Virus record (IMG/VR): IMGVR_UViG_3300022562_001595
Span: 1-22,346 of that record
Source of the DNA: a virus
Length of the DNA stretch: 22,346 nt
Strand: one strand, 5' to 3'
Part shown: positions 6,218 to 19,972 of the stretch, one piece after another
Layout of the letters: each line of letters opens with the position of its first letter
Numbering within the stretch: position 1 is the stretch's first letter
Program-made: the position numbers and the translations under genes
The notes under the pieces: model-generated
What the model was told of the DNA's origin: nothing
Seen by the model: the letters and a program-made list of their open reading frames with translations, nothing else
The model's database searches: none

Positions 6218-7932
6218 TAGGCCAATCCTCCGAAGTCGGGGAGATTATCCCACTTGTCGGAAGTTTCTTTCAAATAGTGAATGACTAGATCGTTCTGTCG
6301 ATTGTTCTCATTCCAGAACTTCTCAACTTTTCTTCTGTGCTCAGCTTCCACATCTAGGAGTTCTTGTTGAATCTGCCTTCCCAACTCAGCAATCCCGACC
6401 ATGGAACTTCCTGTTTTCTTTTTCTTTGCCGTTTCCGGCAATCCGACATCCGGTGACAGTTCAGGACGCTCTACTCCTTTGATATTCATTTCAGCTAAAC
6501 GCCTATTTCTTGTCATTTCCAAGGCTTTAGCAAACTGTTCAGCTACTTTATCCCTATCTTTTTTAAGCTTTTTCAATACAGGACTTTCTTTAAATTTAGA
6601 TGCTGTAGCTACTTCTTTTGCGTAGGCACTTGAAGCGGCCTCCATTGCATTTTTCATGACCGCATCAAATCCTTTTGTTCCCCGCCTTGTCCATCGGTCT
6701 ACAATCTGCTGGGTCATTTCATCCCAAGCTCTTTTTTCTGCTGCGGATCGTTCCATCCCCTGTCCTTGGTAAACATCTGCCCTTGCTAACCATGATCCGC
6801 TTACGTGCATTTGGGCAATGTCTTTTTGTATGTTGAAGAAATTACCAAATAGATCACCTAACGATGCAGCTAATCCTTTGAATATTTCCCATATGGCTTT
6901 TGCTCCTGCTTTTGCATACACAGGAAGCGTATTAGTCATTAATGTTTGCCAATTCTCAGAAATGAATTGAGAGCTTACTTTAAATTGTGCATTTAAAAGC
7001 TCCCAAGTAAGTCCTAGGTTCTTTGAAATTGTATTCAACACATCGGCCACATTATTGGCCCATTGCATCAAAGGACTATTAACGTTATCAAAGACACGCT
7101 TCAATTTATCGCCTAAAGAAATGGCAATATTTATGACGCCTTTTAGAACAGGCATCAGTGATGTACCAAGATCGGTCAAAATGAATTTGATATAGTTTTT
7201 GAGAATATTGAATGATCCGGATAGCGTCTTGCTCATCTCACTCAAAATACCTGTATATCTACCAGTTCCTTCTGTAAGGCCAAACATGACCTTTTCAACC
7301 TCAGAGAATCCCACCTTCCCTTCCTCAACAAGCTTCAGCACTTCTCCTGAGGATTTTCCCATCTCAGCAGCTAATAGCTGCACAAGTGGCACAGTGGCTT
7401 CTGTGAACTGACGAATTTCCTGGGCTTGCAACCTCCCCTTAGATCGAACTTGTCCGTAGGCAAGGGCAAGCCGTCCAAAATCAGCATCCGTAGCAGCGAC
7501 GACGCCAGCCAAAGCCTTGACAGTCTTAATCAGGTCCTTAGAAGCAATCCCATAAGCCAAAAGCTGCTTAGTGTTTAAAGTTAGTTCTTCAAAAGAGAAC
7601 GGAGATGTCAGAGAAAGTTTGCGGATCTCATCAATGATGCCCTTGGCTTTCTCTGCTGATCCCAACATCACTCGCATGGAGGTGGTGGTGGTTTCCAAAG
7701 AGGCAGCTAGACCAAACATCTCTTTTGCTAAAGATGCTGCCCCGATACCGACAAATAACCGTTTCAGCTTCAGGCCCAGCGATTGCTGTCTAACAGTGAT
7801 GTTGTTGTTGATGATGTTGCTGATCTTTTTGGATTGATCAACAGCAACACTCTGGGCACCACGGAAGTCGCCTTTGAGCTGAGAGGCATCTGCTCGGATT
7901 CTGACCCAGACTCTAGCTAGTTCAAGTCCCAC
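6217..7932 (-). CDS. Tape measure protein
   Basis: 571 residues. The core at about residues 75-265 shows the classical tape measure signature: SPFSFEEL (110-117), LLAYGI, GRLALAYGQVRSKGRLQAQE (153-172), EIRQFTEATVPL and FNILKNYIKF. A hydrophobic stretch near 248-275 precedes a charged, helical C-terminal half with coiled-coil-like Lys/Glu segments (about 435-560). It sets tail length and is packed in the tube lumen. At roughly 0.15 nm per residue the tail would be about 85 nm, a short siphovirus tail. The start is GTG at 7932, inside the last codons of the preceding gene (11-nt overlap). An in-frame TGA three codons upstream excludes an earlier start. No lysozyme or peptidase domain is visible. 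Confidence 0.9.
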   Translation of the reverse strand: MGLELARVWVRIRADASQLKGDFRGAQSVAVDQSKKISNIINNNITVRQQSLGLKLKRLFVGIGAASLAKEMFGLAASLETTTTSMRVMLGSAEKAKGIIDEIRKLSLTSPFSFEELTLNTKQLLAYGIASKDLIKTVKALAGVVAATDADFGRLALAYGQVRSKGRLQAQEIRQFTEATVPLVQLLAAEMGKSSGEVLKLVEEGKVGFSEVEKVMFGLTEGTGRYTGILSEMSKTLSGSFNILKNYIKFILTDLGTSLMPVLKGVINIAISLGDKLKRVFDNVNSPLMQWANNVADVLNTISKNLGLTWELLNAQFKVSSQFISENWQTLMTNTLPVYAKAGAKAIWEIFKGLAASLGDLFGNFFNIQKDIAQMHVSGSWLARADVYQGQGMERSAAEKRAWDEMTQQIVDRWTRRGTKGFDAVMKNAMEAASSAYAKEVATASKFKESPVLKKLKKDRDKVAEQFAKALEMTRNRRLAEMNIKGVERPELSPDVGLPETAKKKKTGSSMVGIAELGRQIQQELLDVEAEHRRKVEKFWNENNRQNDLVIHYLKETSDKWDNLPDFGGLA

Positions 7933-8314
7933 GTTTGTTCACTTTCTTCCCCGCAGGCGTCTGTGTGGAAAACGGCACTTTCATCAACTCCCCGTTCGCC
8001 ATCCTGACCTTGATCATCCCGTCTTTATCAACAAAACGAGCAGCCTCCAACGAATTTACAGTCCGTGTGTTTCCAGGACCTTTCCCAGTTCCGTCTTTGA
8101 ATATGTCTTTATCGCATGCCCTGAACCAAACCTGATCAGGAGTCATGTCGCCAACCTGCTGTGGAGTGTACCCGGCCCCTCCAGAGTTAAACGGGTCTTC
8201 ACACAGCATTCTGATCACGTAGGCGTTTATTCCAAACATCAGCCCTCCCCCACCAGTGTCTTTGTAATCAGTCTCCTGATTCTCACTGGCTGTCTCTAGG
8301 GAGGAGAGCTTCAT
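7922..8314 (-). CDS. Tail assembly chaperone T-like frame (expressed by -1 frameshift and/or reinitiation)
   Basis: 130 residues. It sits between the G-like chaperone and the tape measure, where lambda-type phages encode the T part of the G/GT chaperone. The ATG (8314-8312) overlaps the upstream TGA as ATGA. The frame is exactly -1 relative to the upstream gene, and a GGGAAAT heptamer lies just before. A frameshift would give a 340-residue fusion, with Tyr inserted before Met1. The sequence has a GGGGLMFGINAYVIRMLCED segment (23-42) and QQVGDMTPDQVWFRACD (52-68), the kind of small helical domain that recruits tape measure. The C-terminus is basic (GKKVNKRGT). No direct family match is claimed beyond position and frame relation. 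Confidence 0.7.
   Translation of the reverse strand: MKLSSLETASENQETDYKDTGGGGLMFGINAYVIRMLCEDPFNSGGAGYTPQQVGDMTPDQVWFRACDKDIFKDGTGKGPGNTRTVNSLEAARFVDKDGMIKVRMANGELMKVPFSTQTPAGKKVNKRGT
8253..8289 (-). other. Nested stem-loop downstream of the frameshift site
   Basis: Outer arms CCAGTG (8289-8284) and CACTGG (8258-8253) enclose a perfect inner hairpin AATCAG-GAGA-CTGATT (8281-8266) whose GAGA loop is a GNRA tetraloop. It could modulate the frameshift or initiation. It lies inside coding sequence, so chance is possible. Confidence 0.35.
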
Positions 8315-8943
8315 ATATTTCCCTCGTCTGGTTGGGTGATATTTTCAATGATTTGAGCAGCTTCAACCTGCTTGGCGATAGGCCAATTCTCAATATCGCT
8401 TTTCTTAACCCTAGGATGCTGAATACGCACACTTTCAAAAACGAAGGAAATCATTCCCTCATAGCTGCCTGTTATCCACCACATGTCGTAGGAAACAGGA
8501 TTTTGCAACGGTTTCTTGCCGGTTAGTTCTTTGACTTCCCCCGAATCAATCTGATTGCTGTCAAGAGCCGCAACCAGTAGATTCTTGAACTGATCGTCTG
8601 TAAGTTTCTCATCTCCTGGATATATTTCTCGGAGTCGTGATTTGAGCCCTTCTGTAACTTTGATGTTGGAGGCGGAATAGCTTTTTTTTGGTGGCAGGTC
8701 TTTGATGTCCCAACGAGCGGCTTCCTCCACTTTTTTCTCAAGAAGGGCCTCCTGTTTCTCTTTAGGAAACAAATGAATATTCTTGGCGTAGGTCCGCAAA
8801 TACTCAGCTTTGTAAAAATCAACTGCTGCTCTTTGTAGCTCAGCAAGTTGCCTTAATTTTACAGGAGATAGAGTGAATTCGGTATCTTTATCAATGCGGA
8901 TCTTTGCTCCCGCACCGAGAGCCCTGGCTTCTTTATCAGCCAT
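8311..8943 (-). CDS. Tail assembly chaperone G-like protein
   Basis: 210 residues upstream of the tape measure, followed in the -1 frame by a 130-codon gene. The N-terminal third is basic/helical, with KLRQLAELQRAAVDFYKAEY near residues 29-48. The middle contains TEGLKSRLREIYPGDEKLTDDQF and the end has MWWITGSYEGMISFVFESVR (about 153-172). The last codons GAG GGA AAT ATA TGA contain the slippery heptamer. Such proteins bind tape measure and tube subunits in the cytoplasm and are absent from the virion. Length is above the ~140 residues of lambda G but within the range seen for diverse phages. Assignment comes from gene order plus the frameshift signal. Confidence 0.72.
   Translation of the reverse strand: MADKEARALGAGAKIRIDKDTEFTLSPVKLRQLAELQRAAVDFYKAEYLRTYAKNIHLFPKEKQEALLEKKVEEAARWDIKDLPPKKSYSASNIKVTEGLKSRLREIYPGDEKLTDDQFKNLLVAALDSNQIDSGEVKELTGKKPLQNPVSYDMWWITGSYEGMISFVFESVRIQHPRVKKSDIENWPIAKQVEAAQIIENITQPDEGNI
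8317..8323 (-). other. GGGAAAT slippery heptamer for -1 ribosomal frameshift
   Basis: The minus-strand codons read GAG GGA AAT ATA TGA, so G GGA AAT is an X_XXY_YYZ heptamer in the correct phase. It is one base different from the GGGAAAG used in lambda G/GT. Slipping back one base leads directly into TAT ATG AAG, the frame of the next gene. The GAGGG here can also serve as the ribosome binding site for ATG 8314. A nested hairpin follows at 8253-8289 but starts 27 nt downstream, farther than the usual 5-9 nt spacer. Confidence 0.68.
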
Positions 8944-8977
8944 GAGAAGGATTCCTTAAAGGTAAGATTTGCAGCAG

Positions 8978-9178
8978 TTAGTTTTGCGTTTTACAACGCA
9001 CTTTATCAAAGCCAAATAGACGAGCGGCTTCTGCTGAAAGGCGAATTTGCCTAGGGGGAAGGGATTGACGGTGCCGCTCGCGTTCAGCTTCGCAAGCGGC
9101 ACATGGGCAGGTTGGCAAATAGTGGTAGCATGTCTCTCCGTACTCGTGAATCGCGTGTATGAGAGGCAGGCTAGTCAT
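8978..9178 (-). CDS. Small Cys/His-rich protein between tail tube and chaperone genes
   Basis: 66 residues. Cys17, Cys24, Cys26 and Cys29 with nearby His residues (CYHYLPTCPCAAC) look like a zinc site. An Arg-rich helix follows (EAERERHRQSLPPRQIRLSAEAA). The ATG meets the tail-tube stop as TAATG at 9178, so translational coupling is likely. No family recognised. The tight packing and non-random Cys spacing argue that it is expressed. Confidence 0.6.
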   Translation of the reverse strand: MTSLPLIHAIHEYGETCYHYLPTCPCAACEAERERHRQSLPPRQIRLSAEAARLFGFDKVRCKTQN

Positions 9179-9702
9179 TATGAAGATTCGTTTACCGGAT
9201 GTAAAATAGCAGATGGGTAAGTTGGATCAGAATCCGGATCAGGATCACCAGTAGGTCCGTTTTCTCCAGGACCGTAGACAATTCCGTCTGTTCCGAAGCT
9301 CCCTGACCAACCAACGACTTCCTCAGTATCCATATCGACCGTCATACTGAAATCAAGAGCAAGGGCCCTCTTGAAATGCCAAGTTAACGTAGAATCAGGA
9401 GCTACCGATGCTCCATCAAGAGGAAAGGTCGAAGTTCCCATCCAGAGATGCACATTGATATAGTTGGTCCCTAGAGCCAGGGGACTGAAGATTGAAGCCC
9501 CGTGGTCATATTTTCCCTCAGCCGTGAAGGTAGCGTCTCGACGTCCAATGGCTCGATTCGTCCAGCCATAGCTATCTGAGTCGCCCCACTCGGATACGGT
9601 TGCGAGGGTTTTGTTCAAGGCCCATTGGGTGGTACGGGCCACAAGAGTACCGTCAATGGTGATTTTCCCATGACGTCCCGTTACGGTTCCTATTGCTGTC
9701 AT
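9178..9702 (-). CDS. Major tail tube protein candidate
   Basis: 174 residues. The N-terminus (about residues 8-30: GRHGKITIDGTLVARTTQW) reads like the first strands of TP901-type tube proteins. TLATVSEWGDSD near 33-44 and RRDATFTAEGKYDHG near 54-68 correspond to the usual loop and strand around the tube repeat. ALALDFSMTVDMDTEEVVGWSGSF near 112-135 (written as adjoining strands) fits the closing strands. The C-terminus is a Pro/Asp-rich tail (GDPDPDSDPTYPS). The position, two genes before the chaperone pair, is the normal slot for the tube protein. It would polymerise as hexameric rings around the tape measure. Sequence similarity is inferred by eye, so the exact family is open. Confidence 0.7.
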   Translation of the reverse strand: MTAIGTVTGRHGKITIDGTLVARTTQWALNKTLATVSEWGDSDSYGWTNRAIGRRDATFTAEGKYDHGASIFSPLALGTNYINVHLWMGTSTFPLDGASVAPDSTLTWHFKRALALDFSMTVDMDTEEVVGWSGSFGTDGIVYGPGENGPTGDPDPDSDPTYPSAILHPVNESS

Positions 9703-9725
9703 TTTCTAAAGGGCCTTACGCTTAA

Positions 9726-10595
9726 TTAACTCTGCGAACTCCAGGACGAACTACTCGTGCTTGAGGAGCTGCTTGAGGTTGAACTTGTGCTGATCGAACT
9801 TGCGGAACTTGACAATGAGCTGTACGAGCTGCTGCTCACGCTGCTAGATGTGCTGAGCGACTGGCTGCTAGAGCTGCTAGAGCTTTCGCTGGAGCTGCTA
9901 GAGCTAGTGCTTGCACTGCTGGAGCTAGAGCTTGAGCTGAAGCTAGAGGAACTGCTAGAGCTACTGGTGCTCGATGCAGAGCTGCTGGAGCTAGAACTAG
10001 AGCTGCTAGACGAACTGGAGGAGCTAGAGCTAGAGGAGCTTTCGTCCGCATCATGGCGGCCAAGCACCCACATGCTGTAGGTCACAGGACCACCGTTAGC
10101 AGTGAGCTTCAAATTGAAACTCGATCCGCCTACCGCATACCCATCTTCAGCGGTTTGGGTTTTGAATAAAATCCCACCACCAATCAAAGCCCCTCCGGTA
10201 GCGACTGTATGGGTTCCAATAGGAGTCCAGCCATTGGACGAACCCGGTTGAATCTCTAATTTCCCCGCTGCCGTAACAGCATTATCGTTTTTGATCAGAA
10301 TGGCCACAATCTCTTCAAGAGTCAGAGCTTGGCCTACTGAATCATTCCCTGCTCCTGCCCCCACATCAAGATCGGTAAATGACGCTAGATCAATTGTGAT
10401 ACTAGCACCACTGGCGAGATACTGGGACTTATATTGCCACGCACGATTCGCCTGACTGGCACTCACACCACTGGTAAGGTTTGTGGTGACATTGGCGGAA
10501 ATTGCAGCACTTGCAGTCGTGCTGTCATTCAGGGAGTTCTGAATCGTCGCACTGAGCGAAAGAGCAAATTTAGGACTTGAAAGAGATCGTGCCAT
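9726..10595 (-). CDS. Virion protein candidate with C-terminal poly-Ser tail
   Basis: 289 residues. Residues 1-185 form a compact, beta-rich domain (QANRAWQYKSQYLASGASIT, LTLEEIVAILIKND, GKLEIQPGSSNGW, TYSMWVLGRHD) similar in style to small phage surface or decoration proteins. Residues 186-289 are almost pure Ser with a few Ala, Thr, Glu, Gln, Phe, Leu and Trp. The tract uses all six serine codons in mixed order, so it is not a simple DNA repeat. The gene lies between the tail terminator candidate and the tail tube gene. The tail could be a flexible spacer or a site for O-linked sugars. Function of the folded part is unknown to me. Confidence 0.68.
   Translation of the reverse strand: MARSLSSPKFALSLSATIQNSLNDSTTASAAISANVTTNLTSGVSASQANRAWQYKSQYLASGASITIDLASFTDLDVGAGAGNDSVGQALTLEEIVAILIKNDNAVTAAGKLEIQPGSSNGWTPIGTHTVATGGALIGGGILFKTQTAEDGYAVGGSSFNLKLTANGGPVTYSMWVLGRHDADESSSSSSSSSSSSSSSSSSSSSASSTSSSSSSSSFSSSSSSSSASTSSSSSSESSSSSSSQSLSTSSSVSSSSYSSLSSSASSISTSSTSSSSSSTSSSSWSSQS
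9729..10040 (-). repeat. Ser-tract coding region (~104 codons) of the second poly-Ser protein
   Basis: It encodes residues 186-289 with the same mixed serine codon style as 18127-19233. The antisense strand reads as a Leu/Glu-rich frame, which is an artefact of this composition. Confidence 0.85.
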
Positions 10596-10600
10596 TAGCT

Positions 10601-11098
10601 TTATGTTTCCTCAGGGAAATCTACTTTAAACAGGTATTCAACTTCCCAGCGATGTTCTTCGTCCCCTGTCCGCATTCCTCTGCTGTACTGATACTGACAC
10701 AGAAGAACTTGTCCATTATCAATTGATCCAAAGTTTCTTGGCCTGGTTGTTGGATGCCCTCCAAACTTAGCCAAAAGCTCCTCAAGTAATACTGCTCCAA
10801 ATTCCTTCGCTGATTTCGTCCCAGCCGCCTTCGTATGGATATAAAACATTGCTGGGACATCTTCGATTCTGTGTTTCTCAGAAACCGTATGTCCCGTCAT
10901 CCTAGCGTTTATACTACTTCCAATGATCTCATAAACACAATACGGAAACGGCTGTTTAGGCGTAGCTTCTCCATCGTGGAGAGTTGGGAATAAGGTTTTG
11001 TCTTCAGGACTGTAGTACATCTTGAAGTCATCATTTAAATCCCAGCTCATCCAAGCGTTTCTAATCGCTTTATGGAGTGAAGCTATGCCTATCGTCAA
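10601..11098 (-). CDS. Tail terminator (completion) protein candidate
   Basis: 165 residues. PFPYCVYEIIGSSIN (about residues 50-64), EDVPAMFYIHTKAAGTKSAK (about 79-98) and a C-terminal RWEVEYLFKVDF strand match the plan of small tail-terminator/gpU-like proteins, which cap the tail tube. The position between the gp10-like gene and the tail tube gene agrees. The start is TTG (11098-11096), overlapping the upstream TGA as TTGA; GGAG lies about 11 nt upstream. No in-frame ATG is available near the beginning (the next Met is residue 16). Assignment is from pattern and order. Confidence 0.62.
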   Translation of the reverse strand: MTIGIASLHKAIRNAWMSWDLNDDFKMYYSPEDKTLFPTLHDGEATPKQPFPYCVYEIIGSSINARMTGHTVSEKHRIEDVPAMFYIHTKAAGTKSAKEFGAVLLEELLAKFGGHPTTRPRNFGSIDNGQVLLCQYQYSRGMRTGDEEHRWEVEYLFKVDFPEET

Positions 11099-11637
11099 AA
11101 AATTTCGTCTCCAGGATCTCTAGTAACCCAACTATGGTTAGTTGGGATTCTTTTTCCAAAAAGCCTACGGAGAGCGTCGTAGTTTTCATTGAATGTTCTA
11201 ACAAGGAAACTGCGATCCAAATCCCTCTCTAAATACAGAGAGTAGTCAACGTTTGTGTAAACGTAGCCTTCCCAAGATCCGTGTTTATATTCTTTAACAA
11301 GCCCGAGAATACTATGAGCAAGTTTCCCTGTATCAAAATAGGGATACATCCCTGGCTTACTTCTACTAACAGGACTTCCAGGAGAGCGGTACAGAACAAC
11401 CCGTTTTGTGATGTTTTTGACTGTCCGAAAGCGTATCATTTTCACCGCTTTCCCCATTTTTTCGCTCATGTCTTTGTAAATCACGCCTTCGACACGATCC
11501 CCATTCCATTGGATGGTGACATCGAATCGTTTCTGTCCCTTTTCTCCGGAATGGACACCCCTAGCATGACCTGCTTCGCGGTATCTTTTTTCTATTCCCC
11601 GAAAAGAAGCAGAAAATGGTGATTTAGCCCAAGCCAT
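11095..11637 (-). CDS. HK97 gp10-like neck/tail protein
   Basis: 180 residues. The middle has SPGSPVSRSKPGMYPYFDTG (85-104) followed by KLAHSI, then VDYSLYLERDLDRSFLVRTFNEN (130-152, written as one strand-turn-helix segment). These are the SPPG..P..R.G.L..S and YA..LE.G...RPFL signatures of the HK97 gp10 family of neck proteins. The usual Gly after the Glu is Asp here. The ATG follows the TAG of the previous gene with no spacer. It would act at the head-tail junction during assembly. Confidence is good for the family, moderate for the exact position in the particle. Confidence 0.78.
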   Translation of the reverse strand: MAWAKSPFSASFRGIEKRYREAGHARGVHSGEKGQKRFDVTIQWNGDRVEGVIYKDMSEKMGKAVKMIRFRTVKNITKRVVLYRSPGSPVSRSKPGMYPYFDTGKLAHSILGLVKEYKHGSWEGYVYTNVDYSLYLERDLDRSFLVRTFNENYDALRRLFGKRIPTNHSWVTRDPGDEIF

Positions 11638-12237
11638 CTAGCTCCCCACTCGATTGAGCGACTCAATAAACGCAGGATAGTCCTTCTCGAAGCGAGGCAT
11701 CGCGTTCTGCACTTGAGACAAGGGATTCAGCAGGAACTCACCGTCCATCTGCTCAATCTTGTCCATCGAGGGCAACGCCCCCTTCACAACGCGAACCTCA
11801 TTCGCCTGCACCATGTTGTAAATCTCACGCACCAGCGTCTTCATGTAATGCTTGTCCAGCTTCCCTGTGGAGGTCGGAACACCCCGCAGCTCTCCGCCTG
11901 AGCGAATCCCCACATGGTTCTCCATCGACCGCTTGATCTTCCTGCACAGCTCAGGGTCCTTGTTCAGGGGATCGCTGATCTCATAGGTACACTCCGCAGG
12001 ATCAACGGAAAGCCGCTGACCAGGGATCTCAGGGAACTTGCCTAAGATCGTCTGGGACTCAGGGACCAGATGCTCTTGCATCCGCTTGTCATAGACCGTC
12101 CGCGAGTAGGTAATGCGAGAACGCAACTTCTGGCCGTTGAGGCACTGAAACAGCACGTCGCAATTGCGGTGGTGGTCGATCTCAATGGTGAAAGGTGTCA
12201 CTGGGCAGGTCTTCTTTTCAGCAGCAGCAGATGTCAT
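11638..12237 (-). CDS. Head-tail connector candidate (unknown family)
   Basis: 199 residues, first gene after the capsid/HNH locus, in the slot normally taken by a connector or adaptor. It starts at ATG 12237, preceded by AGGGGA about 9 nt upstream. The sequence has VDPAECTYEISDPLNKDPEL (about residues 78-97), a basic middle (CRKIKRSMENH) and a helical C-terminus with LLNPLSQVQNAMPRFEKDYP. Two cysteines near residues 11 and 27 and a third near 33 are not arranged as a known motif. I do not recognise the family; the role is suggested only by gene order. Confidence 0.55.
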   Translation of the reverse strand: MTSAAAEKKTCPVTPFTIEIDHHRNCDVLFQCLNGQKLRSRITYSRTVYDKRMQEHLVPESQTILGKFPEIPGQRLSVDPAECTYEISDPLNKDPELCRKIKRSMENHVGIRSGGELRGVPTSTGKLDKHYMKTLVREIYNMVQANEVRVVKGALPSMDKIEQMDGEFLLNPLSQVQNAMPRFEKDYPAFIESLNRVGS

Positions 12238-12273
12238 TTTTGAAGTTCCCCTTCTCCTAATTTCTCAAAACTG

Positions 12274-12324
12274 AAAAAGTGCCGCCGCCGAATCGGGAGG
12301 AGAAAAACCGAGTCCGGCGACGGC
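12274..12324 (-). terminator. Probable intrinsic terminator after the capsid locus
   Basis: Arms 12315-12324 and 12281-12290 form a 10-bp GC stem in minus-strand RNA with one G-U wobble. The same position is a C/A mismatch if read on the plus strand. An inner 4-bp CGGA-type stem (12308-12311 with 12293-12296) and an 11-nt loop extend it. Five T residues follow at 12278-12274. Its place directly before the next gene suggests partial termination that separates abundant capsid mRNA from downstream tail genes. Confidence 0.62.
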
Positions 12325-12383
12325 AGGCTGCTGCATCCAATGACAGAGCCTAAGGTGGATTCAAAAAAAGCATTCTCAGCTTG

Positions 12384-12412
12384 TTGACTGTTTGTATTAT
12401 TCAGGCTATATT
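12384..12412 (+). promoter_or_regulatory. Sigma70-type promoter for the HNH gene
   Basis: TTGACT (12384-12389), 17-bp spacer, TATATT (12407-12412): each hexamer differs from consensus at one position. The expected start is near 12419, about 55 nt before the HNH ATG. It points against the late operon. Confidence 0.65.
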
Positions 12413-12434
12413 TAGGTTCAGGAGCATTAGTTGT

Positions 12435-12473
12435 TTCAAGTTCACCTCCATATCTCGCAAAGGCGAAAACAAG
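12435..12473 (-). pseudogene. Remnant of a second, diverged major capsid C-terminus
   Basis: The 13 minus-strand codons from 12473 to 12435 read LVFAFARYGGELE. Capsid codons at 13739-13701 read LILAFARYGGQAE, so 9 of 13 residues are identical. Most synonymous positions differ (for example Arg AGA versus CGT), so this is not a recent copy. The match stops exactly at the HNH start codon (12474). Beyond 12435 the frame stays open to an ATGA overlap with the next gene at 12237-12234, but that part has no visible counterpart. It looks like the original capsid 3' end left when the HNH gene and a new capsid end arrived. Confidence 0.6.
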
Positions 12474-13646
12474 ATGACTGATTTCACTAGAAGCCGAAGT
12501 AAGCCTATTTTGACTGACAACACCGTCCAAAACGAAGCCATCCAAGAGTATGTTTCCGGCATCTCCTTGGCTGATCTCTCCAGGAAGTATGGAACCAGTC
12601 CCGCCTATCTCAGGAAGTTGCTCAAGGGAAGCGGAGTTGCCACACGCTCTGCTGTCGAGCAGGCGAAGCTGGATGCCGCCAAGTTCAAAGAACTCTACGG
12701 AGACGAAATCCTTTCCAGATATAACGCAGGGGAATCTGCCAAATCTATCTGTAAAGATTTGGGACTCTACCCTGCACAAATCCGCACGCTGCTGAACGAG
12801 AACAACATCGGCATCAGAAAGGGGCCGCATAAGCACGGACTTGCTGGAACCCCTGAGTACAAAGTTTGGAAGGGTGTCCGCAAACGAATCTTTAACAAAA
12901 ACGCCCAGAACTATAAGTACTATGGGGGCCGTGGAATACAGATGTGTTCCTACCTTGCTGGTTCGGCCAAAAACTTCGTTGATTTGATGGGGAATAAACC
13001 GACTCCCGAACACACTCTTGATCGAATTGACAATGATGGACACTATTCTTGTGGAGAATGCGAAGACTGCAAGAAAAATGGCTGGCCAATGAATCTTCGT
13101 TGGGCAACCCATAAAGAAAACTGCCGAAACACCAGTATTGTACGAACTCTCACATTTAGAGGTGAAACCCGATGTGTCAACGAGTGGATTGAAATCACCG
13201 GAATTACTGCTCTCAAGACTAGACTCAATGCTGGTTGGGATATTGAAAAAGCCCTCACCACTCCTATGGACATGATTGGAAATCAACCCAATTTGACTCC
13301 CGCAGAATTGACTGATCCCATTATTTCTATGTATTCCGATGGGAACTCCCTTATGGCCATCGCGGACCACTTTAAACTCAGCCAAACCGCTGTCAGAAAT
13401 GTTCTGACGCGAAATGGTATCGAGATTAGAAGCAGATCCGAACAAGCTCAACTCCGTGTTGATAGTAGAAATAGGATGCTCACTTACAACGGGAAAACAC
13501 AAACTATCGCCCAATGGGCACGTGAACTCGGAATAAATGGAGCTGCCATTCGTCATCGTAAAAATCGAGGGTGGTCAGATGAGGATGCTCTGACCACTCC
13601 TCTTGTAAAACGTCATGACCAAGATCATCTTGGCAAAAATACTTAA
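12474..13646 (+). CDS. HNH homing-type endonuclease with HTH and NUMOD-like repeats
   Basis: 390 residues on the strand opposite to the operon. An upstream in-frame TTG/ATG would add 31 residues, but ATG 12474 is preferred because AAAGG lies just upstream and the extension is antisense to the capsid remnant. Three helix-turn-helix-like repeats lie at about 24-56, 79-115 and 283-319 (Y-x-x-G-x-S...I...L.S/G). The nuclease part spans about 126-220: YKYYGGRGIQMC, HTLDRIDNDGHYSC, NLRWATHKENCRN, with a CGECEDC cluster at 193-199 that may bind zinc. Two GWxxExALTTP-type repeats at 225-264 and 335-376 resemble NUMOD DNA-binding units. It would cut a specific allele of its target locus and promote its own spread. 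It is convergent with the capsid gene, with stops only 12 bp apart. Confidence 0.85.
   Translation: MTDFTRSRSKPILTDNTVQNEAIQEYVSGISLADLSRKYGTSPAYLRKLLKGSGVATRSAVEQAKLDAAKFKELYGDEILSRYNAGESAKSICKDLGLYPAQIRTLLNENNIGIRKGPHKHGLAGTPEYKVWKGVRKRIFNKNAQNYKYYGGRGIQMCSYLAGSAKNFVDLMGNKPTPEHTLDRIDNDGHYSCGECEDCKKNGWPMNLRWATHKENCRNTSIVRTLTFRGETRCVNEWIEITGITALKTRLNAGWDIEKALTTPMDMIGNQPNLTPAELTDPIISMYSDGNSLMAIADHFKLSQTAVRNVLTRNGIEIRSRSEQAQLRVDSRNRMLTYNGKTQTIAQWARELGINGAAIRHRKNRGWSDEDALTTPLVKRHDQDHLGKNT
13571..13597. repeat. Perfect 9-bp inverted repeat inside the HNH gene
   Basis: GTGGTCAGA (13571-13579) and TCTGACCAC (13589-13597) are perfect complements separated by 9 nt. In minus-strand RNA the hairpin follows the capsid stop by about 60 nt and is followed, after about 7 nt, by TTTTT. 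It may end capsid transcripts or be chance within a coding repeat. Confidence 0.4.
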
Positions 13647-13658
13647 TGGGTTAGGACC

Positions 13659-15236
13659 CTAAGCAGGTAAAGTTGTAGAACGAGCGATGATCGCTCCACT
13701 CTCAGCTTGGCCCCCGTAACGGGCAAAAGCTAAGATGAGAAGCTCGTTCTGCCGACGCAGGGTATCACCCGACGTCTCTTGCATGAGCTGGATGCCCTTC
13801 CGCTGATACATGCGATAACGGCCCAAGATCGCGTAGAACGCTTCGGTGTTAGCGAGGCTCTCGTTGATCTTGTAGGGACGCTGCATGATCGAGTAGGAGT
13901 CATAATCCATCCCGAACAAGCGACGGGCATCACTCGACCCTACGGCCAGAGCACGGGCTCGCTGGTAGCTCGTCTCATTGCCGCAGAACACCGCTGTGGA
14001 GCCGTAACCGCCCTGATGCTCCGGCTTGGAAACGCCGAATCGCAGGGACTCGTAGTTGCTCAAGCTGGTAGAACCACCGAAGTTGACGCTTGTGGCACCA
14101 GACTTCTGCATGATCCCTTCAGGCTGGGTGGTGCCGTTTCCATCGGCGATCACGTCGTCCAGGTCTTCCTTCAGGCGGTCGCCGTACTGGCGAGCAATGC
14201 GGGAAGCGAAGTCAATCGGGGTGTCGGACAAGAAGTCCAAACCGACATGAATCGCACCCTGCCATCGGAAGATCGTGGTATCGAAAGCCGCGATGTAGGA
14301 AGCCGTGTTGAAGAGGCTGACTGCGGTATCATCGACACCACCCCAGCTTCCTGTCACGACCAACTGGCTCACGCCTTCAACTCGACGTCCACGCTCAATA
14401 GGAACGACATTGACGAGCGGGAACAGCTCACCGAACAGCAGGGGCCGTTCGATCACCATCGCGTCAAACACGATTGGAGCGGCTTCCAAACCACCCGAAG
14501 CACCGCCGTCGTCGATCAGGGCTTTCTGCTCGCTGGGGGTCAGGTGCTTTTGGCCGAAGTAGATCCCGTTCGAGGACCCGCCCCATTCCATCTTTTCCGC
14601 ACCATAGCGAAGCAGCTCTTTGTCGTGGTCGTTGAGCATGCTGAAAGCCATGGAGGCCGAGCCGTTTCGCTGGCTCTTGGCAATCTGATGCTTCGCCCAC
14701 GCCCCAGCAACCGCCTTCTCCCGCTCGGAGATGTCCATGTCGCCGGATTCCAGCCAGTGAAGCCTCTGGCCTGCTTTCGCGTGCCTGTGGCCCTTGTGGT
14801 TGGTTTCAGGGAAGGTCTTGGTCTGCTTGGTGCCGTCGTAGCTTTCCCAAGCACCCTTGACGCGGATCTGGGAGCCCGCTGCCTTCTCAGTCTCTTCGGT
14901 GGTCAAGACGGCTTTCACGCCCTCCTGCCATTCCGTCGATTCCTTGGGAGCCGCTGGGGCCTGCTTCTCTTCAACCTTCGGCTGAGGAGCCGCTTCCTTG
15001 GCAACCGCGATCTCCGCCAGCTTGGCGACCAGGTTGGTCAGGCTGTCGAGCTTCTGGGTGAACTCGTTGGCCTTCTCAACTTCAGGCTCAATCGAAAGTT
15101 CAGCTAACTTTTCCGCCGAGAGTGTGCCATTGGCAATCGCTTCTCCGGCGGCCTTGCGGTACTCTTCGTCGGAAGCATCGGCAACTACACCGCACTTCTC
15201 TTGAAGGTACTTCTTCAATGCGTCCGTCAGTTTCAT
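13659..15236 (-). CDS. Major capsid protein, HK97 fold with N-terminal scaffold region
   Basis: 525 residues. Residues 1-100 are charged and helical (coiled-coil-like, with a Pro/Ala/Glu-rich end at 82-100) as expected for a delta/scaffold domain removed by the protease. The HK97 fold begins near 230. Marker segments are LFPLVNVVPIERGR (271-284), WQGAIHVGLDFLSDTPIDFA (325-344), DDVIADGNGTTQPEGI (360-375, the usual DGxGxxxPxGI) and ETSYQRARAL. The C-terminal LILAFARYGG (500-509) packs in the P domain of such proteins. Codon use is more GC-rich and regular than in neighbouring small genes, fitting high expression. ATG has AAAGG about 7 nt upstream, and a hairpin sits in the leader. The last 14 codons differ from a remnant C-terminus at 12435-12473. 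Confidence 0.92.
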   Translation of the reverse strand: MKLTDALKKYLQEKCGVVADASDEEYRKAAGEAIANGTLSAEKLAELSIEPEVEKANEFTQKLDSLTNLVAKLAEIAVAKEAAPQPKVEEKQAPAAPKESTEWQEGVKAVLTTEETEKAAGSQIRVKGAWESYDGTKQTKTFPETNHKGHRHAKAGQRLHWLESGDMDISEREKAVAGAWAKHQIAKSQRNGSASMAFSMLNDHDKELLRYGAEKMEWGGSSNGIYFGQKHLTPSEQKALIDDGGASGGLEAAPIVFDAMVIERPLLFGELFPLVNVVPIERGRRVEGVSQLVVTGSWGGVDDTAVSLFNTASYIAAFDTTIFRWQGAIHVGLDFLSDTPIDFASRIARQYGDRLKEDLDDVIADGNGTTQPEGIMQKSGATSVNFGGSTSLSNYESLRFGVSKPEHQGGYGSTAVFCGNETSYQRARALAVGSSDARRLFGMDYDSYSIMQRPYKINESLANTEAFYAILGRYRMYQRKGIQLMQETSGDTLRRQNELLILAFARYGGQAESGAIIARSTTLPA

Positions 15237-15274
15237 CTTTAAACCTTTCTTTGGGTTCTGACGGTGATCTTTTC

Positions 15275-15293
15275 CACTACGACCGCCGTAGTG
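15275..15293 (-). other. Leader hairpin between protease and capsid genes
   Basis: CACTACG and CGTAGTG pair perfectly over 7 bp around a 5-nt loop in the 63-bp gap. There is no T-tract, so a terminator is unlikely. A processing or stabilising element for the abundant capsid mRNA is possible. Confidence 0.4.
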
Positions 15294-15299
15294 CGTTCT

Positions 15300-16763
15300 C
15301 TACAGCCCCGCTAGGAGCTTGTAGGTTTTTGCTAGGGCATTCTGCTCCTGGGCATTCTTCATGACCTGCAGAACTGACAGCATCTTTTCCTTCTGGTCCT
15401 CGCTTGACTCAGCAAGGAAGATGGCAAACGCTTGCTTGGCAGTGATCTCCTGGACAGCGGTTTCGCCCGATGCGTCCCCCTCGTCCTCGTCGATCATCTT
15501 GCGGATCTTGCCTGCACACCTTTCACAAAGAGCCATGCTGCCTCGGCTCATGTTTTGTTCGTTGTTGCACACATCAGTCAGATCGTCGTGGACCTCTTTG
15601 AGAACCGCCATGTTCTTCTTGCTGATGGAGCGGCCAGCCTTCTCTTCTGTCTGGGGCTGGTCTTTTGTTTCGATCACTTTCTCGTCGTGGGCTTCTTCTT
15701 CTTTTGCTTCAACGACTTCATCGGCTTCTTTTGATGTACAGCCGCATCCTTCTCCGCATCCTGCTCCTTCTGTCTCAGGGCTTCCGTCTCCGCACTCGTT
15801 CTCATCACAATCCCCCTTGGTTAAATCAATGCCAACAGCCACCTGGATGGGCATTTGGTTACGAATCGTTTTGCCATACTCCTTCATGATCCCAGAGGTG
15901 AGCTTGCCGCCTTCCACAAGGGAAACCAGCACCTCCGCTACCTCCGCATCCGCGTTAGAAGGCACGGAAACCACCGACTCTTCCATGATCTCGAACCGCT
16001 TGACGTCAAATCCACCTGGCCCCGTGACCTCTCCCTCGGTTTCCTTCAGTTCCTCAAATTCCAAGGCTCGGAACCCATGGGAGAAACGGGCCATGTCGTT
16101 ATCTACCATCACGGCGGCGTCATGGCTCAGTTCGTTCATATCCACGATGGCGGAGATCAGAACCAGCTTCTTGGGGTTGTGCTCCACAACGGCCAGCATC
16201 TTGCCGATCGGCAGGGTGTGAACATGCTGCCAGAGAAGCAGCATCTTGGGATCGACCACCGCCCCCTCGGTTCTCAGAACATCTCCGTCCCGATCCTTTC
16301 GAGGAGTAGTGAGAACATGACGAAAAGCCATAAGAGTATTCTTAGGAAGTTCCACATCCTTCAGGGCTCCTAGGTCTACCTGTTTCTGCTCCACCACCAT
16401 GTCTTCGTTCGAGTAGGTGAGGGTGCGACTGGCTTTGCGGAGAGCATCGTCATAGGAGACGCTGCGAGATGAAGCAAACTTATAGCAAGTATCAAGACCC
16501 ACTACTTGTTGCATATTCTTCACCCAGCGATCCGCCGTGAGAATTCCGTGATGGAACTCAGTCAGCTTCTCGCTGCGGGCTCGAATTCGATCAATCAACG
16601 AAGTGTTGTCACTTGCCATCTTGTGGGCCTCGTCCCATTGAGAATTACAAACCGCGTACCGCTGGGCGTTCGTCGGGAAATCATCATTCATTGTGCTGTT
16701 TGCCATGCACCGCTGAATGAAGTCTTCTTTTCTTTCGCCCGAATTTGGAGTAGGTAACGGCAT
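15300..16763 (-). CDS. Prohead protease with Cys/acid-rich C-terminal extension
   Basis: 487 residues. The N-terminal 50 residues carry a leader (PNSGERKEDFIQRCM, TNAQRYAVCNSQWDEA) often fused to phage proteases. The protease domain, about 145-275, has RDGDVLRTEGAVVD, LWQHVHTLPIGKM with the likely catalytic His180 or His182, ARFSHGFRA with Ser229, and ESVVSVPSNADAEV, the typical end. It would cut the capsid scaffold region inside the prohead. The C-terminal 210 residues are unusual: CDENECGDG and GCGEGCGC (319-342), an acidic Glu/Lys stretch, then NMSRGSMALCERCAGKIRKM (404-423) and a helical end. This may be a built-in scaffold or zinc-binding part. ATG at 16763; 9 bp after the previous gene. 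Confidence 0.85.
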   Translation of the reverse strand: MPLPTPNSGERKEDFIQRCMANSTMNDDFPTNAQRYAVCNSQWDEAHKMASDNTSLIDRIRARSEKLTEFHHGILTADRWVKNMQQVVGLDTCYKFASSRSVSYDDALRKASRTLTYSNEDMVVEQKQVDLGALKDVELPKNTLMAFRHVLTTPRKDRDGDVLRTEGAVVDPKMLLLWQHVHTLPIGKMLAVVEHNPKKLVLISAIVDMNELSHDAAVMVDNDMARFSHGFRALEFEELKETEGEVTGPGGFDVKRFEIMEESVVSVPSNADAEVAEVLVSLVEGGKLTSGIMKEYGKTIRNQMPIQVAVGIDLTKGDCDENECGDGSPETEGAGCGEGCGCTSKEADEVVEAKEEEAHDEKVIETKDQPQTEEKAGRSISKKNMAVLKEVHDDLTDVCNNEQNMSRGSMALCERCAGKIRKMIDEDEGDASGETAVQEITAKQAFAIFLAESSEDQKEKMLSVLQVMKNAQEQNALAKTYKLLAGL

Positions 16764-16772
16764 TTAATCTAA

Positions 16773-17072
16773 TTAGCTGCTGACGATAATCCGACCTGTC
16801 GCATAATGCAGGTTCAGGTTTCCGTCGCTCGCAGCTCCTCTAGTAAATCGAATCTTCCTAACATCTCGAACCAGAAACAGTTCAGGCTCGTTTCCGTTAA
16901 CTAGAACCATCCCACTGGTTTGTGTGGGATCTGTGGCATCATCCATGGTGTATCGGATGTCATTCGTGTCTGCTTGAAGCTCAACAAGCGTGGCTTCAAC
17001 AGGGATATTAAGCACAGAAGCAGTCTTCACCGCAGCACCCGCTGCAACTGATTCTGAGAGAATAAATGCCAT
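16773..17072 (-). CDS. Small beta-rich virion-associated protein candidate
   Basis: 99 residues in a pattern I know from small phage structural proteins: VLNIPVEATLVELQADTNDI, RYTMDDATDPTQTSGMVL and RKIRFTRGAASDGNLNLHYA. These form a chain of short strands with the DG..PT..G turn. Its place just before the protease and capsid genes would suit a head decoration protein. No enzyme motif, membrane segment or cysteine. The start overlaps none; a 4-bp gap separates it from the gene before. The family is a by-eye judgement. Confidence 0.6.
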   Translation of the reverse strand: MAFILSESVAAGAAVKTASVLNIPVEATLVELQADTNDIRYTMDDATDPTQTSGMVLVNGNEPELFLVRDVRKIRFTRGAASDGNLNLHYATGRIIVSS

Positions 17073-17076
17073 GCTA

Positions 17077-17355
17077 TTAGCACCGTTTAACTAGTGTCGC
17101 ATCAATAGAAAGTAATTGACGAACAGCAGGCCAATCTTCCTTGTCCACTTTTTTGATCCAAGCAACTAGAGATCCGGTGTCTAGTTGATCGCTTCCCATA
17201 GGAGTTTTCTCCACCGCGTATTCCATGTCGCGTTTCACACCAAGCTCTTTCAGCTTGTTGTAGGTGGCGTCTCGTAGAAATGCCACATTCTCACTGGAGG
17301 TCTTCCTGACCTGGCGAATCACGCTATTGAATTCATTTTTTTCTAGTTCAGGCAT
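17077..17355 (-). CDS. Small unknown protein
   Basis: 92 residues, mainly helical and charged (NSVIRQVRKTSSENVAFLRD, TYNKLKELGVKRDMEYAVEK, DKEDWPAVRQLLSIDATLVK). No motif recognised, one terminal Cys. It follows the long poly-Ser gene by 9 bp and precedes the small beta protein by 4 bp in the same transcript. It could be a virion or scaffold accessory protein; nothing in the sequence decides this. Confidence 0.55.
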   Translation of the reverse strand: MPELEKNEFNSVIRQVRKTSSENVAFLRDATYNKLKELGVKRDMEYAVEKTPMGSDQLDTGSLVAWIKKVDKEDWPAVRQLLSIDATLVKRC

Positions 17356-17364
17356 TTCTACCTC

Positions 17365-19551
17365 TTATGTGTAATTCAAATAAACCGACATGCCTTTAAA
17401 ATGCACACCAAGTTCATTTTTATCTAACGACAAATCAAAATTTGCTGCTGTGTCATCAGTAGTAACTGTCATAAACAACAAAATATTATGGTTACTAGTA
17501 TCCCATCCAGAAGTTTGAAGAAGTTCATTTATAACTCCGGCAATGGTTGGGCTAGAAGCAGTAAATGGGTTGCTGTCCCATGTTTCTCCTGGAGTTATGC
17601 TTTTTATCAAGAAAGAATCAGACGCACTTCCTGTTTTAGAAGCATTTAAATAGTCTGCTGAGTAATCAAATAACCCATCACCATCTGAATTAACATCAGG
17701 AGCATTTATCAATGCGTATCCTGATATAGTGGCTTTTAAATCAACCTGCCCGTTCACCGTACTATCTGTTGGCTGCCATGCAGACATCGACAAATAAGCA
17801 CTTGTTACTGTATTTGTACTGTAGAGGGGGACATTTCTCAAAAGCAATGCAGTACTGTAGTGATGAGGGCTGTATTGATAAACGCCTCCCCCAAGCGGGT
17901 ATCTATGCAATGAAGCAAAAAGAACGCCAGAATTTGGCGGATTGTATAAATCAAACGTATCAAAACTGGTTCCACCAACATCCGGGTTTGTGTAATTAAC
18001 AGTGGATGGATAATTAGCCAGGCTAGTATCAGTAAAATCTGCGCTCGAAATAGTTTCATGTTGTGTATCTAACTGACGATACCACCCGACAAATGGCACT
18101 AGCTCTAATGGTGCTCCAGTTAAACCGGAACTGCTCGAACTGGACGAACTGCTAGACGAGCTAGAACTGGAACTACTGGAACTTGACGACGAGCTGGAAC
18201 TAGAGCTACTTGAGCTGGAGCTAGAGCTGCTAGACGAGCTGGTTGAGCTTTGACTACTGATCGAATCTTGCGAGAGCGAGCTTACATCGCTGAGGCTAGA
18301 ACTTGATGTAGAGCTGATTGACGAACTAGAAACCGAGCTACTGGAACTGCTGGAACTCGATGTGCTGCTTGCACTTTGACTCGATGTGCTGATACTGCTG
18401 GCACTAGAACTAGACGAACTTGAAGTACTTGACTCAGAAAGACTTGAATCGCTAGAGCTTGATGTGCTGGAGGAGCTAGTTGAACTATCGGAACTTAGCG
18501 AGATCGAGCTAGACGACGTGCTATTTGAGCTGGACGATGTGCTGATCGAGCTTTCAGAGCTGGAACTTGTGCTGGAAGCCGAGAGCGAGCTATCCGAGCT
18601 GGAACTTGTGCTGGACGACGAGCTACTAGAACTAGAACTAGAACTGCTAGAACTCGTGCTAGAAGCCGACAAACTGGAGGCACTAGAACTACTAGATGAG
18701 CTACTAGAACTGGAACTAGAACTACTAGAACTCGTGCTAATTGAACTAGCTGAACTAGTAGAAAGTGACGAAGCAGATGAACTCGATTTACTAGAGCTAC
18801 TTGTGCTCTGTGAACTTAGACTCGAAACACTGCTAGAACTACTGGTACTGAGCGAACTAACATCACTCTGACTAGAACTACTTGTGCTAGAAGCACTAGA
18901 AGAACTAGTAGAACTAAGACTAGAGCTACTCGATGTGCTCGGACTTGAGCTACTCGATGTGCTCTGCGAACTAACAGAACTCTGAGAACTAGAGCTGAGC
19001 GAACTAAGCGAACTCTGAGAACTAGAACTCTGGCTAGAACTTTGAGAACTCTTAGAACTAGAACTAACAGAACTTGTACTAATCGAGCTAGTAGAGATCG
19101 AACTAGACGATGTACTGATTGAGCTAGAGCTGGTTGAACTAGAACTAATCGAACTCAAAGAACTTGTGCTAGACGAACTGCTCGTACTGATCGAGCTGGA
19201 AGAACTGGTGGAAACCGACTGACTCGAATCAGAGCAGTCTTCCATGTAGCGGATACGAATCTTCCCATCCCGACGATCAGGAAGAGGGTATTGCTGCAAA
19301 GATCCGGTATGGAAATGCGTAATGTCTGTTTCTTCGTCTTCCCCGTTGATGCGGGTATCCGTTAGTTCAATACGCCAAATCGTATTGTAGGGAAGACAAA
19401 AAGTGGCTTGATTGACATTGCCAGCAAGTTCAGTAGTAACTTGTGCCGCTGGTGGCGTGTCGTCGCCTGCTCGCGTGTGTCGCGTAATCACTACCGTACG
19501 CTTGGTTAAAGCACCGGCAGGAGCGAACTCAACATGAACCATAACTGGCAT
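17365..19551 (-). CDS. Very long Ser-rich surface protein candidate
   Basis: 728 residues in three parts. Residues 1-106 form a small beta domain (EFAPAGALTKRTVVITRHTR, NQATFCLPYNTIWRIELTDT). Residues 107-475 are a serine tract broken by scattered Thr, Ala, Leu, Ile, Gln, Val, Asp, Glu and Lys. Residues 476-728 form a C-terminal domain rich in Asn/Asp/Tyr/Thr; TPGETWDSNPFTASSPTIAG and LLFMTVTTDDTAANFDLSLD suggest a lectin- or DNRLRE-like beta sandwich, though I cannot confirm a family. The tract mixes all six serine codons. A flexible fibre projecting the C-terminal domain from the head is a plausible picture. The start at ATG 19551 has a weak ribosome site; Met4 is an alternative. It may have its own promoter at 19675-19703. 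Confidence 0.72.
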   Translation of the reverse strand: MPVMVHVEFAPAGALTKRTVVITRHTRAGDDTPPAAQVTTELAGNVNQATFCLPYNTIWRIELTDTRINGEDEETDITHFHTGSLQQYPLPDRRDGKIRIRYMEDCSDSSQSVSTSSSSSISTSSSSSTSSLSSISSSSTSSSSISTSSSSISTSSISTSSVSSSSKSSQSSSQSSSSQSSLSSLSSSSQSSVSSQSTSSSSSPSTSSSSSLSSTSSSSASSTSSSSQSDVSSLSTSSSSSVSSLSSQSTSSSSKSSSSASSLSTSSASSISTSSSSSSSSSSSSSSSSSASSLSASSTSSSSSSSSSSSSSSSTSSSSDSSLSASSTSSSSESSISTSSSSNSTSSSSISLSSDSSTSSSSTSSSSDSSLSESSTSSSSSSSASSISTSSQSASSTSSSSSSSSSVSSSSISSTSSSSLSDVSSLSQDSISSQSSTSSSSSSSSSSSSSSSSSSSSSSSSSSSSSSSSSSSSSSGLTGAPLELVPFVGWYRQLDTQHETISSADFTDTSLANYPSTVNYTNPDVGGTSFDTFDLYNPPNSGVLFASLHRYPLGGGVYQYSPHHYSTALLLRNVPLYSTNTVTSAYLSMSAWQPTDSTVNGQVDLKATISGYALINAPDVNSDGDGLFDYSADYLNASKTGSASDSFLIKSITPGETWDSNPFTASSPTIAGVINELLQTSGWDTSNHNILLFMTVTTDDTAANFDLSLDKNELGVHFKGMSVYLNYT
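18127..19233 (-). repeat. Ser-tract coding region (~369 codons)
   Basis: The stretch encodes residues 107-475, mostly Ser, with TCG, AGT, TCC, AGC, TCT and TCA interleaved. It gives low-complexity protein without long exact DNA repeats. The longest near-pure run is at its 3' end (about 18127-18240). Confidence 0.85.
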
Positions 19552-19650
19552 AGGTACAAATCCAAAATCTGAAAGCAGTGGGTAGTTTTCATCTCAAACA
19601 CCCGTCGCAGTTCATCTTTGGAAAGACACCTAGACGCGGCTATGGAAACT

Positions 19651-19669
19651 CAAACCCTAGAAGGGTCTG
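19651..19669 (-). other. Short hairpin in the leader of the Ser-rich gene
   Basis: CAGACCCT and AGGGTTTG pair over 8 bp around a 3-nt loop in minus-strand RNA, with one G-U pair that is a mismatch on the plus strand. No T-run follows, so it may protect the 5' end of the transcript rather than end one. Confidence 0.4.
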
Positions 19670-19674
19670 CAATT

Positions 19675-19703
19675 ACATTAAATTTAGAATAAACCCTTGA
19701 CAA
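19675..19703 (-). promoter_or_regulatory. Possible promoter for the long Ser-rich gene
   Basis: On the minus strand: TTGTCA (19703-19698), 17-bp spacer, TAATGT (19680-19675). The -35 box matches consensus at 5 of 6 positions, the -10 box only at its most conserved T, A and final T. The predicted start falls at the hairpin 19651-19669. Confidence 0.4.
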
Positions 19704-19711
19704 CCACAATG

Positions 19712-19972
19712 TCATTCTAGGGCATTTTTCTGATTTACTTCTTGAAGTTTCCTCTGAGTTCCTGCCGGTCTATCGCAAGAAGTATAGGAAACCTTGCAGT
19801 GGATCATCATTCCCCGATTGCCGTGAACCTCAAATTTAAGAGAGAATTCCTTGCCACTGCCTACCATTTCACAAAAAAGCCTGTCAAACTCTCGAACATT
19901 TCCTAAAAAACACTTGAGAGATTCGTCGTCCTCTAAAACCTCTCGATAATCAATTGATTTATTTTGTTCCAC
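19712..19972 (-). CDS. Small unknown acidic protein
   Basis: 86 residues with GTG start (19972-19970) preceded by GGAG 7 nt upstream, overlapping the previous gene by 14 nt. Sequence features: a charged N-terminus (SIDYREVLEDDESLKCF), a hydrophobic/charged middle (LFCEMVGSGKEFSLKFEVHG) and a basic end (CDRPAGTQRKLQEVNQK). No domain recognised. The GTG start and close packing indicate translational coupling with the gene above it. Confidence 0.55.
   Translation of the reverse strand: MEQNKSIDYREVLEDDESLKCFLGNVREFDRLFCEMVGSGKEFSLKFEVHGNRGMMIHCKVSYTSCDRPAGTQRKLQEVNQKNALE

Follow-up and report, generated by a model that had tools for sequence, protein, structure and literature searches.

An uncultured virus fragment of 22,346 bases (IMGVR_UViG_3300022562_001595), analysed over its whole length and called the window here, carries a gene for an HK97-type major capsid protein, an HNH endonuclease gene that runs against it and, behind the start of the HNH gene, codons that resemble the capsid C-terminus once more. 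This arrangement raises the question of what the second end is, and whether the present end of the capsid gene is its own. A sequence-only reading of the window had proposed that the endonuclease arrived together with a foreign capsid 3' end and displaced the resident one.

The late genes lie on the minus strand in the order portal, protease, HK97-type major capsid, a conserved 199-aa gene and tail genes, and the HNH gene (12474-13646, plus strand) stands between the capsid gene (13659-15236, minus strand) and the 199-aa gene (11638-12237, minus strand). Two genes of the structural region (9726-10595 and 17365-19551, minus strand; 289 and 728 aa) code for extended low-complexity stretches rich in serine, which may be linkers in proteins of the virion surface. 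The features discussed below are as follows.

13734-15236, minus strand: codons 1-501 of the major capsid gene, its resident body (TIGR01554 major_cap_HK97, E=5e-19; PF05065, E=2e-14; GC3 about 0.73)
13659-13733, minus strand: present capsid 3' end, codons 502-525 LAFARYGGQAESGAIIARSTTLPA and TAG, apparently foreign, as judged from the GC3 change point, the divergence of the end and changes at near-invariant sites
13647-13658: 12-bp spacer between the stops of the capsid and HNH genes, which face each other, as read in the sequence
12474-13646, plus strand: gene for an HNH endonuclease of 390 aa, probably of the homing type, on the strand opposite the capsid gene (phrog_3377, helix-turn-helix families, sister in locus L065)
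12435-12473, minus strand: core of the remnant, displaced capsid C-terminus LVFAFARYGGELE, now 5' leader of the HNH gene on the opposite strand (PSSM; DNA alignment, z about 6)
12420-12434, minus strand: tail of the remnant, TTNAP, which matches TTTAPA at the end of the family, about seven codons before it having been lost (five-residue match, p=0.0003 to 0.0007 in shuffles)
12412-12414, minus strand: TAA, probable former stop, two bases out of frame (sequence reading, through alignment with the family end APA-stop)
12384-12412, plus strand: possible HNH promoter, TTGACT-17-TATATT, 10/12, a weak prediction (5 sites against 2.0±1.7 expected)
12274-12325, minus strand: original capsid terminator, a 17-pair hairpin and T-run (fold -29.6 kcal/mol; family comparison)
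13559-13600, minus strand: candidate replacement terminator for the capsid transcript, within the HNH 3' coding region (GGAGTGGTCAG-N11-CTGACCACCCT, then CGATTTTTA)
11638-12237, minus strand: next late gene, 199 aa, in head/connector position, a conserved capsid neighbour that starts 52-220 bp past the capsid stop in HNH-free relatives

A decayed capsid end behind the HNH gene

We built a profile (PSSM) of the capsid C-terminus from 66 relatives and scanned the whole window with it in six frames. The capsid's own end, LILAFARYGGQAE at 13739, ranked first with 30.8 bits, and the 13-residue core encoded by the minus strand at 12473-12435 ranked second with 24.7 bits, while the third-best place in the window reached 8.1 bits and shuffled windows peaked at 2.4±3.3 bits, with a maximum of 9.5. 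The sequence-only reading had taken these codons for a diverged copy of the capsid C-terminus; its coordinates were exact, and the remnant turned out to be longer than claimed, as a TTNAP tail follows the core. The similarity begins at the HNH start codon, as had also been pointed out, the first codon of the remnant (CTT, 12473) directly abutting the HNH ATG (12474).

The same relationship was found in the DNA. Aligned with the capsid 3' ends of 65 relatives, the remnant gave a mean score of 21.8, as compared with 15.6±0.98 in dinucleotide shuffles, none of which scored as high in 300 trials (z about 6). It aligned better to the relatives' capsid ends than to the present capsid end of its own genome, and is therefore not a recent copy of the latter. 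From AFARYGG to the closing E, eight codons specify the same residue in both ends and seven of them differ, which bears out the earlier statement that most synonymous sites had changed. Both ends have F504, which is absent from the 66 relatives, so they may stem from the same sublineage.

The five codons after the core, TTNAP, matched the family tail TTTAPA in shuffle comparisons (five residues, p=0.0007 in frame and p=0.0003 in any frame; six residues, p=0.002 in any frame). Since the consensus end of the family is ARYGGQLERGAxxAxTTTAPA, about seven middle codons, corresponding to the family's R-G/A-A-x-x-A-x, are missing from the remnant between core and tail. The remnant is without an in-frame stop, and an old stop can be read solely when two bases are ignored (CCT-GAACC-TAA, a reading of the sequence). 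Taken together, these results identify the remnant as a true capsid end, decayed yet recognisable. It now serves as the 5' leader of the HNH gene on the other strand; the HNH promoter region there is a weak prediction, the -10 box of which touches the probable former stop of the remnant.

For comparison, about 100 loci with this capsid were retrieved. HNH-free relatives have a single capsid end in the family consensus, then the terminator hairpin and, 52-220 bp on, the homologue of the 199-aa gene; a distant bacterial match (L106) differs from this layout. According to the sequence-only reading, such relatives were expected to end like the remnant, with ELETTNAPEP-like residues, ahead of the terminator and the connector gene. 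The terminator and the next gene do follow and the family matches the remnant, but none of the relatives ends in ELETTNAPEP, which is instead a derivative of ...QLERGAxxAxTTNAPA by deletion of seven codons. The best full-length capsid relative was 56% identical, and no close relative was among the loci found; tblastn at E<=1e-3 gave no capsid relative in isolated phages, and bacterial genomes gave one, which is distant.

A second C-terminal copy of the capsid was detected in none of the other loci retrieved (143 such loci with a clear C-terminal match), so that the remnant is known from one locus only, the present window. A scan with the DNA pattern for AFARYGG[QE] returned seven stretches, none of them with capsid similarity. 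A further search for neighbouring gene ends present twice, run over about 90 HNH loci, returned noise only and was uninformative, because it also missed the known remnant.

In one of the loci, L065, the capsid is 52% identical to that of the window and an HNH gene lies at the same site and in the same orientation (5387-6449), between the capsid stop and the terminator and 13 bp from that stop, as compared with 12 bp in the window. As in the window, the family-type terminator of L065 stands beyond the HNH gene. Neither the profile nor DNA alignment detected a capsid-end remnant in L065.

The position of the terminator agrees with the identification of the remnant. A hairpin of -29.6 kcal/mol at 12325-12280, followed by a T-run, lies directly behind it, so the displaced codons do stand beside a probable terminator, as the sequence-only reading had described. 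A hairpin with a T-run was present within 140 nt past the capsid stop in 46/66 capsid loci, compared with 29/614 control stretches; with a terminator of the family type directly behind it, the remnant sits where the capsid end belongs. The present capsid stop, on the other hand, is more than 1.3 kb from this original-type terminator, with the HNH gene and the remnant in between, and the capsid transcript may use the hairpin at 13600-13559, inside the HNH 3' coding region, instead.

Composition of the present end and of the remnant

The present capsid end differs from the body of the gene in composition. GC3 stood at 0.73 in the body as against 0.37 over the final 27 codons (p=0.0002 for this stretch), and the best change point, the place of which was not preselected, fell at codon 502, LAFARYGG, with a drop to about 0.35 (permutation p=0.006). 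This is exactly where the duplication starts. A drop as large was found in one other capsid of 66. Relative to its own body, the present end was also the most divergent among 67 capsids, and it departs from the family at near-invariant sites (R513S, with R in 65/66, and A523L, with A in 64/66). From these observations the present capsid end looks foreign, the composition effect being significant but small over only 24 codons. The nearest relatives of the end and of the body overlap (L003, L001), and the last ~30 codons hold too little signal to name a donor.

Elsewhere GC3 was intermediate in the HNH gene (0.47) and back at the level of the capsid body in the following 199-aa gene (0.72). Across the window, GC3 was 0.62-0.73 in the portal, protease, capsid and 199-aa genes (11638-22334), compared with about 0.38-0.47 in the tail-region genes (5168-11637), a contrast that suggests either mosaic origin or expression-related codon bias.

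The remnant has a composition of its own, with 3/17 codons ending in G or C as compared with 0.73 in the capsid body (P=3.6e-6). Being AT3-rich, it is probably not the own end of the present body. The claim of the sequence-only reading that a foreign end came with the HNH gene and displaced the resident one thus gains support in its first part from the composition break and from the most divergent end of 67, while the view of the remnant as the resident end of this very capsid is at odds with its GC3. Since the core is so well preserved as protein, a displaced end decaying neutrally would not be expected to have changed at third positions alone. The low GC3 of the remnant relative to the body suggests, as the simplest reading, import of the new end, the HNH gene and the remnant together from an AT3-rich relative, and we consider it more likely that the three arrived as one block, with the upstream crossover at LAFARYGG, than that the remnant is the body's own end.

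The alternative that the present capsid end is native, and that the HNH gene was inserted downstream of it, as in L065, with a stray fragment of a donor's capsid end on its 5' side, makes the remnant the foreign piece. It would fit the GC3 of the remnant and of the HNH gene, both of which are far from that of the capsid body, and it has a model in L065, where the HNH gene follows a complete capsid gene with no remnant. However, the present end too breaks with the composition of the body, at the very codon where the duplication starts, and no other of the 67 capsids has so divergent an end, while the remnant lies just upstream of the family-type terminator, the proper place for a capsid end. 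On balance we regard this alternative as unlikely.

The HNH gene and its place at the capsid end

The product of the HNH gene matched phrog_3377, an HNH endonuclease (E=1.8e-50); it has 390 aa, with the HNH domain at about residues 119-270 and helix-turn-helix motifs around it. The gene thus combines a nuclease domain with DNA-binding modules and lies outside any intron or intein; the region 12000-14300 gave no Rfam intron match at E<=1. Judged from these sequence features, the protein is probably a free-standing homing endonuclease. At its N-terminus it is longer than the HNH protein of L065 by about 115 residues, which contain helix-turn-helix motifs (12474-12830, plus strand), a difference that suggests gain or loss of a domain in the DNA-binding part.

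In a tree of 82 HNH proteins, the capsid-linked HNHs of the window and L065 were sisters with 0.99 support, and none of the other capsid relatives had the HNH gene in this position. Since these sisters occur in the same place, the HNH lineage is linked to the capsid-end site, whereas replacement of the end with a surviving remnant was seen once. The site itself departs from the family in both HNH-bearing phages, the window having QAES and L065 having SRWGG instead of ARYGG.

This association also bears on the alternative that ordinary recombination, by tandem duplication or unequal crossing-over between two diverged phages, produced the duplication and that the HNH gene settled there later without having caused it. 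Phage genomes are mosaic, and tandem HK97-type capsid ends could arise without an endonuclease; nevertheless, the similarity starts one base past the HNH start codon, and only 12 bp separate the working capsid end from the HNH stop, the two stops (13659 and 13646) facing each other at the distance that the sequence-only reading had given. The HNH gene accordingly fills the interval between the two capsid-end copies. Because a sister HNH stands at the same site in another phage, and two copies without an HNH gene occurred in no locus examined, we find this alternative improbable, and more so than a native present end.

Opposite the HNH gene, the minus strand has an open frame of about 440 codons (12237-13556), which is in register with the capsid gene and the remnant and ends in an ATGA overlap with the start of the 199-aa gene; TTA, CTA and TCA do not occur among HNH codons 1-367. 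Such an open frame had a P between 7e-7 and 3e-5 under the codon usage of the window, and 2e-8 under that of the gene itself. As 18/334 comparable phage genes (about 5%) were equally open, we did not use it as evidence of selection.

A further alternative is an element that is read through, either as a spliced intron or as an in-frame insertion like that of ShiLan, in which case the true last exon would be the remnant. In its favour, the remnant and the open antisense frame both share the capsid frame, and an in-frame element with a hidden HNH has already been described (PMC11855218), but the capsid frame is broken by two stops, at 13661 and 13577, the Rfam search found no intron, and seven conserved codons and the stop are gone from the remnant, whereas the present end is complete. 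Equally open antisense frames are found in about 5% of surveyed phage genes, and in L065 the HNH gene is out of frame with the capsid and its antisense strand has stops. These points make read-through very unlikely. Two specific forms were rejected: a group I intron, the conserved RNA structure of which should have been matched by the Rfam search of 12000-14300 (E<=1) but was not, and a ShiLan-type insertion, which requires that no stop separate host gene and element, against the stops at 13661 and 13577.

An assembly artefact, with two related phages fused within the capsid/HNH region, is hardly credible either, in spite of the record being an uncultured 22 kb virus fragment with GC3 varying along it, because a second genome would have contributed the end of a functional capsid gene, which the remnant, short of seven codons and a stop, is not, the resident composition resumes past the block (GC3 0.72 in the next gene, matching the capsid body), and the independent contig L065 has a sister HNH in the same place.

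Proposed mechanism and known systems

We therefore favour, with moderate confidence, replacement of an older capsid end by a foreign capsid 3' end, linked to homing of the HNH gene, as in fungal mitochondrial mobile ORFs. The HNH protein would act as a free-standing homing endonuclease on the conserved AFARYGG-coding stretch near the capsid 3' end, and the mobile unit would carry a capsid 3' end of its own (codons 502-525 and the stop), the 12 bp and the antisense HNH gene. On entry, the end of the unit would complete the capsid reading frame and so keep capsid function, and the recoded target site in the carrier should escape cutting. The recipient's own end would come to lie between the HNH start and the original terminator; there it would decay by loss of seven codons and the stop and become the leader and promoter region of the HNH gene. 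By composition, there would have been two steps: the composite of new end, HNH gene and remnant would have formed in an AT3-rich relative, the putative donor, and co-conversion would then have carried it into the present GC3-rich capsid gene, the upstream crossover falling at LAFARYGG. In an account of T4-like phages, the passages concerned report that free-standing homing endonucleases cut the co-infecting genome and co-convert flanking sequence, and document one-sided illegitimate repair at microhomology (PMC2988022).

A wider possibility, which we put forward tentatively and hold to be somewhat doubtful, is that a phage HNH lineage carries a spare capsid 3' end as cargo, which would provide an immune, functional end wherever it lands and let it spread among diverged phages by repeated replacement of the C-terminus. 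If so, it would be the first phage case of replacement of a gene end by a mobile ORF, and would show a route to mosaic capsid proteins.

If the replacement we favour is true, it would account for one way in which capsid proteins turn mosaic inside a single gene; a mechanism of fungal mitochondria would be extended to phages and to the most conserved virion gene. The two-ended structure would mark the exchange site at base resolution. It is predicted that the recoded AFARYGG-coding sites of HNH-bearing phages resist their own enzyme, and that HNH-free relatives are cut there.

Among phage systems, the ShiLan element, a hidden HNH in a phage methylase (PMC11855218), is similar in combining an HNH with an essential phage gene and an open frame in register; it lies on the same strand, in frame and without a stop, whereas the HNH gene of the window is antisense and placed after the stop codon. 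The HNH endonucleases of Skunavirus are reported at fixed genome sites, with a phylogeny that tracks the insertion site (PMC12724721), and endonuclease genes are reported at exchange boundaries, where their neighbours are core genes such as those for capsid and terminase (PMC10448857). The window shares with these the link between phylogeny and site, the core-gene neighbours and the exchange borders, but a duplicated or replaced gene end does not appear in the passages of these two accounts that deal with them. Similarly, the mob and seg genes of T4-like phages (free-standing HNH and GIY-YIG; PMC2988022) resemble the window in having an endonuclease beside an essential conserved gene, with co-conversion of the flanks expected, while the passages on them describe no replacement of a gene 3' end with a displaced remnant. 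What marks phage free-standing homing endonucleases was found in the window as well, namely an HNH with DNA-binding modules, a site-linked phylogeny and presence or absence at one site. Literature searches within an open-access library yielded no phage precedent for endonuclease-linked replacement of a gene end.

The closest likeness is to the mitochondrial mobile ORFs that carry a foreign C-terminus, described for atp6 of Allomyces macrogynus and for atp6, atp9, cox2 and nad3 of Glomus (PMC3630166), where transcription of the hybrid gene was observed by RT-PCR. In both the fungal genes and the window, an endonuclease ORF lies near the 3' end of the gene, a C-terminus that is foreign in the fungal genes, and probably so in the window, completes the host gene, and the older C-terminus is kept downstream; likewise, nucleotide identity between the two ends is low and protein identity high, as in Glomus atp6, with 63.5% in nucleotides and 91% in protein (PMC3630166). 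The fungal endonucleases are of the LAGLIDADG or GIY-YIG type, belong to organelles and lie downstream of the inserted end, some in phase with the host gene, whereas that of the window is an HNH, in a phage and antisense. Moreover, the older fungal ends match close relatives, while the remnant of the window matches the family, has a composition unlike that of the capsid body and has no close relative. As to the features that define the fungal type, the window has an endonuclease ORF adjoining the 3' end of a conserved gene and a second, diverged C-terminus beyond it, and the present end may be foreign, in view of the change in GC3 (p=0.006) and of its divergence, the highest among the 67 capsids. 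The arrangement is probably a phage version of mitochondrial gene-end replacement.
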